Positions 8,720 to 11,263 of a DNA stretch of 64,000 nt are shown in pieces. Positions within the stretch are counted from its first letter, which is position 1; each line of letters opens with the position of its first letter. The notes beneath the pieces were generated by a model. That model ran no database searches. It saw only the letters and a list, made by a program, of their open reading frames with translations, and was not told where the DNA came from. This DNA is from Thermogemmata fonticola (GTDB lineage Bacteria > Planctomycetota > Planctomycetia > Gemmatales > Gemmataceae). The stretch is from positions 558,001 through 622,000 of the forward strand of contig NZ_JACEFB010000001.1 of the NCBI RefSeq assembly GCF_013694095.1, written 5' to 3'. The position numbers were made by a program, and so were the translations under genes.

Positions 8720-8915
8720 TCGGGCCGTGTGGGGCACAAATCCCCGGAGACCGAGCAAACTCGCCGCCTCGCTACCCTACGGTTAGCCGACTTACCCTGC
8801 TTCGTGCTGCCTATGAATTAACTCAACCATAACTCGACCCGTGTTTCGGCTCACAAGACCCGATCCCTGAACAATGCGATCAAGGGAACACGGGGAAACT
8901 CGGAGGAAGCCGCCC

Positions 8916-9491
8916 ATGCCCGCACCCCAGGTTGGCCAGACCGTGGAGAATCTGGAACTGTTTACGCCCGCGGGGGAAGTTATCCGCCTGGAGGATTTGC
9001 TCGACCGCGAGTACCTGCTGCTGATTTTTCTGCGGCATTTGACGTGAACGGCGTGCAATGCCCACCTCGGCGAGGTGGACCGGCATGTCGAAGACTTTGC
9101 GGCACGGGGGTGTTCCGTGGCGGTGGTCAGTCAGTCCCAACCGGCGGAGTTGGCCCGTTATCAGCCGGCCCAGCGGTGGAAGGTCCGTGTTCTGGCGGAC
9201 CCGCAACGCCGACTCTATCATGCCTTGGGATTGGAACGCACCCGCCCCTGGATTTTCCTGTGGCCGCCGGTGGTCCTGGGTTATCTCTGGAGTCTTTTGC
9301 GCGGCTACCGGCCCCGCCTGCCCCGACCCGGTGAAGATGTCCTGCAACTCGGCGGGGACTTCCTCCTGGATCGCCAACGCACCTTGCTTTACGCCTACCG
9401 TTCTGCCCACCCGACGGACCGGCCCAGCGCGGCGGCTCTGCTCGCTGCCCTCGACGCCCTTCGCCAAGCCAAAACCACGGGAAGCTGCTAG
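8916..9491 (+). CDS. AhpC/TSA-like redoxin with probable active-site selenocysteine (in-frame TGA)
   Basis: Reading from the ATG at 8916, preceded by GGAGGA eight bases upstream, gives a 191-residue thioredoxin-fold protein of the peroxiredoxin-like AhpC/TSA type. The frame is interrupted once, at residue 44, by TGA (9045-9047), then stays open to the TAG at 9489-9491. The TGA sits exactly where this family has its redox cysteine: family pattern F-x-R-H-x-x-C-x-x-C, here FLRHLT-(TGA)-TAC-N, which gives a U-x-x-C motif. A hairpin fitting the bacterial SECIS model begins 10 bases after the TGA. I therefore read TGA as selenocysteine, not as a pseudogene; both sides of the TGA keep normal coding character. 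A gene caller would report only the fragment from the GTG at 9075. The SelA/SelB/SelD machinery is not in the window, so its presence in the genome must be checked. Confidence 0.75.
9048..9086 (+). promoter_or_regulatory. Putative bacterial SECIS hairpin
   Basis: Immediately after the in-frame TGA, CACCTC (9063-9068) pairs with GAGGTG (9072-9077) around the loop GGC, and ATGCC (9058-9062) pairs with GGCAT (9082-9086), leaving a 3'-side bulge GACC. The apical loop starts 22 bases after the TGA and its first two bases are G, which fits the published bacterial SECIS consensus (loop about 16-37 bases downstream with a G in its first two positions). Confidence 0.6.
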
Positions 9492-9763: not shown

Positions 9764-11263
9764 ATGATGCACAGGACACCCACGCTTACCCTGGCTTGTT
9801 TGAGCCTGATCCCCCTCCTCGCGGCCCACTCTCGTGTGTGGAGTCAAGAGAAGGACACCTACTACCAGCATCCCGATGAGACGGCCATGACGCCGTTCCG
9901 GGATCAGGTGCCGATCGTCTTCGTCACCCAGAATCAGCCGGAATGGAAAGCCCTGCCGCAATTCTGGAACGAAGCCACGGAAGAAGCAGTCGACCCGCTC
10001 AGCGGCGAGAAGGTGCAACGGCGTGTGGTCAAGATCAAGGTGCCGCTTGGTCTGACCCAGGCCCCCCCAGTGCCGGCGGAAAACCCGATGACCGTGCAGA
10101 AATGGATTCTCGGCAAAAAGCTCTACTATGACCCGATCCTGTCTACGGACAACTCGGTGTCTTGTGCCAGTTGCCATGATCCGTCCAAAGGGTTCGCCGA
10201 TGCGCGGAAGACCTCGGTCGGAATCAACGGACAATTGGGGCCGATCAATGCCCCGACCGTGTTCAATGCGGCGTACAACAAGCTGCAATTCTGGGACGGG
10301 CGAGCCGCCTCGCTGGAAGATCAGGCCCAGGGACCGGTGGGGAACCCGTTGGAAATGTTCGCGGGCAAGGCGGACCCTTGGGACGAAGCAGTCGCCCGGC
10401 TGCGCGCCAACCCGGAGTACGTCCGCATGTTCAAGGCGGTCTTCGGTACCCTGCCGACGCGGGATGCCGCCGCCAAGGCCATTGCCACCTATGAGCGGAC
10501 CGTGCTCCTCGGCAATTCGCTCCATGATCGAGCGGAGGCACGGATGCGGCAGCGGGTTATCGAGGAGGAAAGCGGCAAATTCGAGCTGACCGCCGCGGAT
10601 TACGCCGCCGCGCTCAAAGAGGAGTTCGCCCGCAAGGGGCCGGCCCTCAAGGACCTGGGACTGGACCCGGATAAGGACGCTGGCCGCATCGGCGAGATCG
10701 CCCAGCGCCTGCTCCATGGCCGCAATCTTTTCTTCAACAAGGCCCGCTGCGCGAACTGCCACAGTGGCGAGACTTTCTCCGACGGGGAGTTCCACAACCT
10801 GGGGGTCGGCGCGGATAGCCAGGGGAACCTGCCGCCGAGCGAGGCCGGCCGCTTTGCCCGCTTGCTCCTCGGTCACAAAAACCCCCAGCTTTATGGGGCA
10901 TTCAAGACGCCGGGGCTGCGCGGCCTGCTCCACACCGCCCCCTACATGCACACCGGCACCGAAAAGACCCTGGAAGAGGTCATCGACTTCTACGATCGTG
11001 GCGGCAACGTCAATCCTTTCTTGAGCGAAAAGATGCGGGACACCGCCGCCGAGTTGGCCTATCTGAAGGCTCGCGCCGCCGGAGCTGCCGTTGATCCGCA
11101 GGTCAAAACCTTCGGCCCGGCCCGTCGGCCTGTCATCCCGCTCCAGCTCCGCCTCACCCCCCAGGAAAAGGCGGACCTGGTCCTGTTCCTGAAAGCCCTC
11201 AACGGCGATCCCCTCGACCCGCTCATCGCCGACCCGAATCGCTTTCCCCAGGTGAAGTGGTAG
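9764..11263 (+). CDS. Di-haem cytochrome c peroxidase / MauG-family protein
   Basis: A 499-residue exported protein with a signal peptide (LACLSLIPLLAAHSRVWSQ). It carries two c-type haem motifs, CASCH (N-terminal haem, near residue 129) and CANCH (C-terminal haem, near residue 328). The surrounding family blocks are present: NAPTVFNAAYN, FWDGRAASLEDQA with the GP-x-NP loop that follows, and the distal GLRGLLHTAPYMHTG. Family members reduce hydrogen peroxide with electrons from small cytochromes, or act as MauG-like oxidases, in the periplasm. About 100 residues precede the first haem and the C-terminal half is longer than in the classical ~340-residue enzymes, as is common in planctomycete paralogs. 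ATG 9764 has TGGAGA about seven bases upstream. Confidence 0.88.
   Translation: MMHRTPTLTLACLSLIPLLAAHSRVWSQEKDTYYQHPDETAMTPFRDQVPIVFVTQNQPEWKALPQFWNEATEEAVDPLSGEKVQRRVVKIKVPLGLTQAPPVPAENPMTVQKWILGKKLYYDPILSTDNSVSCASCHDPSKGFADARKTSVGINGQLGPINAPTVFNAAYNKLQFWDGRAASLEDQAQGPVGNPLEMFAGKADPWDEAVARLRANPEYVRMFKAVFGTLPTRDAAAKAIATYERTVLLGNSLHDRAEARMRQRVIEEESGKFELTAADYAAALKEEFARKGPALKDLGLDPDKDAGRIGEIAQRLLHGRNLFFNKARCANCHSGETFSDGEFHNLGVGADSQGNLPPSEAGRFARLLLGHKNPQLYGAFKTPGLRGLLHTAPYMHTGTEKTLEEVIDFYDRGGNVNPFLSEKMRDTAAELAYLKARAAGAAVDPQVKTFGPARRPVIPLQLRLTPQEKADLVLFLKALNGDPLDPLIADPNRFPQVKW

Follow-up and report, generated by a model that had tools for sequence, protein, structure and literature searches.

Evidence for a SelL-related, peroxiredoxin-like selenoprotein with a UxxC active site in the planctomycete Thermogemmata fonticola

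Background

Peroxiredoxin-like (Prx-like) selenoproteins with a UxxC motif, where U is selenocysteine (Sec), were described from marine metagenomes as Prx-like 1, with the domain of Pfam entry PF00578 (PMC2398784), and UxxC proteins designated 'Prx-like thiol:disulfide oxidoreductase' are counted among the high-confidence selenoprotein predictions in a 2026 review (PMC13188914). The bacterial SECIS element (bSECIS) that accompanies such genes is constrained, according to the same review, to a loop of 3–9 nt with G in the first two positions, a stem of 4–16 bp, a spacing of 16–37 nt and a minimum free energy of at most -7.5 (PMC13188914). Animal SelL has a pair of Sec residues spaced two apart (PMC3316567) and is the source of the name of NCBI family NF040769, the "SelL-related redox protein". 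Two planctomycetes, G. obscuriglobus and I. pallida, have previously been reported to possess Sec machinery (PMC4807772).

The present analysis concerns a 64,000-nt stretch of the Thermogemmata fonticola genome (contig NZ_JACEFB010000001.1, positions 558,001–622,000), hereafter the window, in which an earlier note had proposed a probable undetected AhpC/TSA-like selenoprotein. UxxC Prx-like selenoproteins are already known, as is the NCBI family; the redoxin described here adds another member.

Results and discussion

Sequence and structural affinities of the redoxin

The protein matches NF040769 over its whole length (residues 9–178) with 167 bits against a curated cut-off of 120, and both TGA-containing and other members exceed this cut-off in our phylum sample. 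It shows no family-level difference and represents a Sec member of the family. Unlike animal SelL proper, which is defined by UxxU with two Sec residues, it has a single TGA and a U-T-A-C motif, that is, one Sec and one Cys. The bacterial Prx-like UxxC selenoproteins share with it the Prx-like domain, the UxxC motif and a bacterial SECIS, but they were described from marine metagenomes and other bacteria, and the likeness drawn here is one of these general features.

The AhpC/TSA-like description given in the earlier note holds with a qualification. The scores for PF13911 (61.9 bits) and PF00578 (53.6 bits) lie above the respective Pfam gathering scores of 27 and 26, and the AlphaFold model (mean pLDDT 96.3) is a confident Prx/thioredoxin (Trx) fold with a helix at 45–56 directly after residue 44. 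Its best PDB matches in fold comparison are Bcp/PrxQ-type peroxiredoxins and human prostamide/prostaglandin F synthase. Nevertheless, the protein is not a classical AhpC or peroxiredoxin: although it has the fold and the PF00578 match in common with Bcp/PrxQ, AhpE and AhpC, their peroxidatic motif Pxxx(T/S)xxC is replaced by RHLTUTAC, with Sec for T/S and Arg for Pro. A PDB search with the single sequence returned no match, whereas a profile search did, and there, in the alignment with 2cx3, residue 44 falls on the Ser of the typical Prx motif, while the peroxidatic Cys is matched by Cys47. The only PDB sequence match over nearly the whole profile (8–167, E 5e-11) is prostamide/prostaglandin F synthase (PRXL2B; 9us9, 9usa), which has the same fold (TM 0.71/0.83) and whose two mutated Cys are likewise residues 44 and 47. 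It differs in being a human Cys enzyme that acts on a prostaglandin endoperoxide, and is only 16% identical.

The reading frame and the selenocysteine machinery

The redoxin gene occupies 8916–9491 of the forward strand, running from ATG 8916 to TAG 9489–9491 and specifying 191 amino acids plus the stop. Its sole interruption is TGA 9045–9047, codon 44, which forms the first position of the C-x-x-C-type motif U-T-A-C, and 147 sense codons separate it from the TAG; the codon of Cys47, the presumed resolving residue, is at 9054–9056. A ribosome-binding site, GGAGGA, lies at 8902–8907, eight bases upstream of the ATG. A standard ORF finder calls only 9075–9491, a 138-residue product with a GTG start. 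On all these points the earlier note had read the locus correctly.

A search of the genome for selA, selB, selD and tRNA-Sec, which had been proposed as a check, recovered all four. The selA (533 bits), selB (396 bits) and selD (291 bits) genes each score above their curated cut-offs, selD being free of internal stops, and tRNA-Sec scores 74.9 bits against a cut-off of 47, with a tca anticodon according to ARAGORN. The presence of the machinery is not accounted for by the classic Sec client, formate dehydrogenase, since the best gene of that type in the genome lacks a TGA and does not reach the cut-off of its family.

Conservation of the Sec position

To assess the conservation of the TGA codon we used 59 genomes sampled from the organism's own genome, family, order and class. 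A TGA-containing homologue is present in 25 of these, the relatives spanning some two dozen genera. Each of the 25 has exactly one in-frame TGA, always in the U44 column with xxC after it, and none contains a further stop. Eight further TGA homologues in the wider phylum conform to RHxxU..C, and an alignment of 28 redoxin sequences shows no variation at R40, H41, residue 44 or C47. In all five aligned homologues lacking the TGA the U44 column is occupied by Cys, and their genomes have neither selB nor tRNA-Sec over threshold. Position 44 is hence either the putative Sec-TGA or Cys, just as had been anticipated for the homologues. The machinery accompanies the Sec form in 22 of 25 genomes, as against one of nine with only a non-TGA form, four of these nine being judged from the match table and not by alignment (Fisher p = 7e-5, a value that ignores phylogeny and treats related genomes as independent).

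The three exceptions (G003, G031 and G035) have the TGA form with no selB above the cut-off and no convincing tRNA-Sec; two of the three genomes are only 75% and 83% complete, and G031 is 92% complete. The G031 locus (L026) has an intact TGA-form frame and a weak SECIS-like hairpin, and possible explanations for this case are an incomplete assembly or a recent loss of the Sec machinery.

In comparisons with four other genera, dN/dS ranges from 0.22 to 0.34 downstream of the TGA and, where computable, from 0.25 to 0.65 upstream of it; as dS is high and near saturation these values are rough, yet clearly below one. By these substitution rates, the sequence after the TGA is maintained as protein by purifying selection.

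The SECIS-like hairpin

A putative bacterial SECIS stem-loop spans 9049–9090 of the forward strand. Its upper stem (9062–9068 paired with 9072–9078) encloses the loop GGC at 9069–9071, and a lower stem (9049–9056 paired with 9083–9090) is predicted from this one sequence only. The hairpin CCACCTC-GGC-GAGGTGG at 9062–9078 has 7 bp, a 3-nt loop whose first two bases are G, a spacing of 21 nt from the TGA to that loop, and a free energy of -10.0 kcal/mol, all of which fall within the bSECIS limits given above; the hairpin and the two G residues that had been noted in its loop were thus recovered. By itself this hairpin is suggestive and no proof, since 6.1% of the 1,498 TGAs on both strands of the window pass a strict bSECIS filter and 2.3% are followed by a hairpin as strong. 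The fold of the 60-nt segment is likewise unexceptional against dinucleotide shuffles (z -1.6), and a plain Rfam scan of the 64-kb window gave no match, a result that is uninformative about SECIS. Four further ORFs of the window (21106, 45282, 49680 and 25512) can also be read across a TGA and have a hairpin that reaches or approaches the bSECIS threshold, but their translations are of low complexity or resemble frame shadows. The frame across TGA 25512, on the minus strand, encodes a long Cys/Trp/Pro repeat and is probably the shadow of a repetitive stretch.

It is the comparison between genomes that is conclusive. Over 24 genomes with an HLxxV-type segment, 154 of 168 upper-stem pairs are kept, as against a mean of 114 under synonymous recoding (sd 4.2, maximum 126 in 500), and 91.7% of the cells are paired as against 36–52% when the partner strand is slid. 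Three of the seven pairs have changed on both sides, giving 16 compensatory cells, a degree of covariation reached by none of 500 shuffles. Thirteen genomes have C-G as the closing pair and five have G-C. This hairpin is not kept at this position in the TGA homologues L029, L036 and L037, so that the SECIS evidence is not uniform. Several of the more distant TGA homologues (L036, L037, L051, L052, L065 and L071) lack the HLGEV-type hairpin, and some of them show a different stem that overlaps this site or lies a few bases downstream, which suggests that the position of the SECIS has shifted in evolution. In the Sec forms, the SECIS stem (9062–9078) codes for a conserved protein segment, H-L-G/V-E/Q-V, which is missing from the Cys forms; the RNA structure may therefore have shaped the protein sequence at this point.

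Alternative readings of the TGA

The interrupted frame is in itself what would be expected of a decayed gene, broken in two by a nonsense mutation at codon 44. Against this, 25 genomes share the column of the TGA, even at identities as low as about 30–45% and with no other in-frame stop, the sequences on both sides of it are under purifying selection, and the hairpin covaries. These observations effectively exclude decay, which the earlier note had already considered the less likely course. A sequencing or assembly error, with TGC or TGT read as TGA, would have had to recur independently in the congeneric assembly G001 and in 23 more genomes, and is just as exceedingly improbable.

The UGA might alternatively be a regulated or partial stop, or be read by a near-cognate tRNA that inserts Cys or Trp, with the downstream ORF from GTG 9075 as the product. 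This possibility draws on the existence of that separate ORF with its own start, but we consider it very unlikely: codons 1–43 are conserved and, in the predicted structure, supply the initial strands of the fold, a product begun at 9075 would have no active site, and Cys takes the place of the TGA mainly in genomes that lack the Sec machinery. By contrast, relatives keep the same UGA at the same place and the genome has the full machinery, and the codon is therefore almost certainly read as Sec. We put the probability that 8916–9491 encodes a full-length selenoprotein, with UGA specifying Sec at the active site, at about 0.96, a reading predicted from sequence comparison and modelling. The proposal of the earlier note is hence strongly supported by the machinery, the shared TGA column in 25 of 25 homologues, the exchange with Cys, selection and the covarying hairpin.

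Proposed mechanism

Under the selenoprotein reading, translation would start at ATG 8916, and a SelB-GTP-Sec-tRNA complex recruited by the SECIS hairpin would insert Sec at UGA 9045–9047, as homology, conservation and structure prediction suggest. The product is predicted to be a Prx/Trx-fold oxidoreductase in which a helix begins at the active site, U44-T-A-C47. From motif and fold we infer that Sec serves as the nucleophile and Cys47 as the resolving residue: the Sec selenolate would attack a peroxide or disulfide substrate, Cys47 would resolve it as a selenenylsulfide, and a reductant of the thioredoxin type would presumably recycle the enzyme.

Genomic context

The next gene downstream, at 9764–11263 on the same strand, encodes a 499-residue protein of the di-haem cytochrome c peroxidase/MauG family (PF03150, 179.7 bits) and is a candidate functional partner; the genome has no other PF03150 gene. 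In seven genomes belonging to six genera, the present one included, a Sec redoxin gene is followed on the same strand by a PF03150 gene (loci L009, L010, L011, L012, L018, L021 and L026), and no such gene was found beside the five Cys-form redoxins. The association is frequent and not obligatory, since some genomes that lack the Sec redoxin also have close relatives of the peroxidase. The upstream neighbour of the redoxin gene is purE, which was not found beside the redoxin at the other loci examined. The conserved pairing suggests that the redoxin and the peroxidase might share a role in peroxide or redox defence. More tentatively, and with some doubt on our part, the two might form a two-gene redox module in which the selenoprotein cooperates with the haem enzyme, for example by maintaining it or by sharing peroxide substrates. 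We found no report of such a partnership in the literature searched.

Conclusions

A Sec-utilising bacterial lineage hereby gains a well-supported selenoprotein, and the reading is corrected for a gene which routine ORF prediction would split or truncate. The Sec form of this redoxin family is widespread among related genomes, and its conserved pairing with a di-haem peroxidase provides a testable lead on the role of these uncharacterised redoxins.
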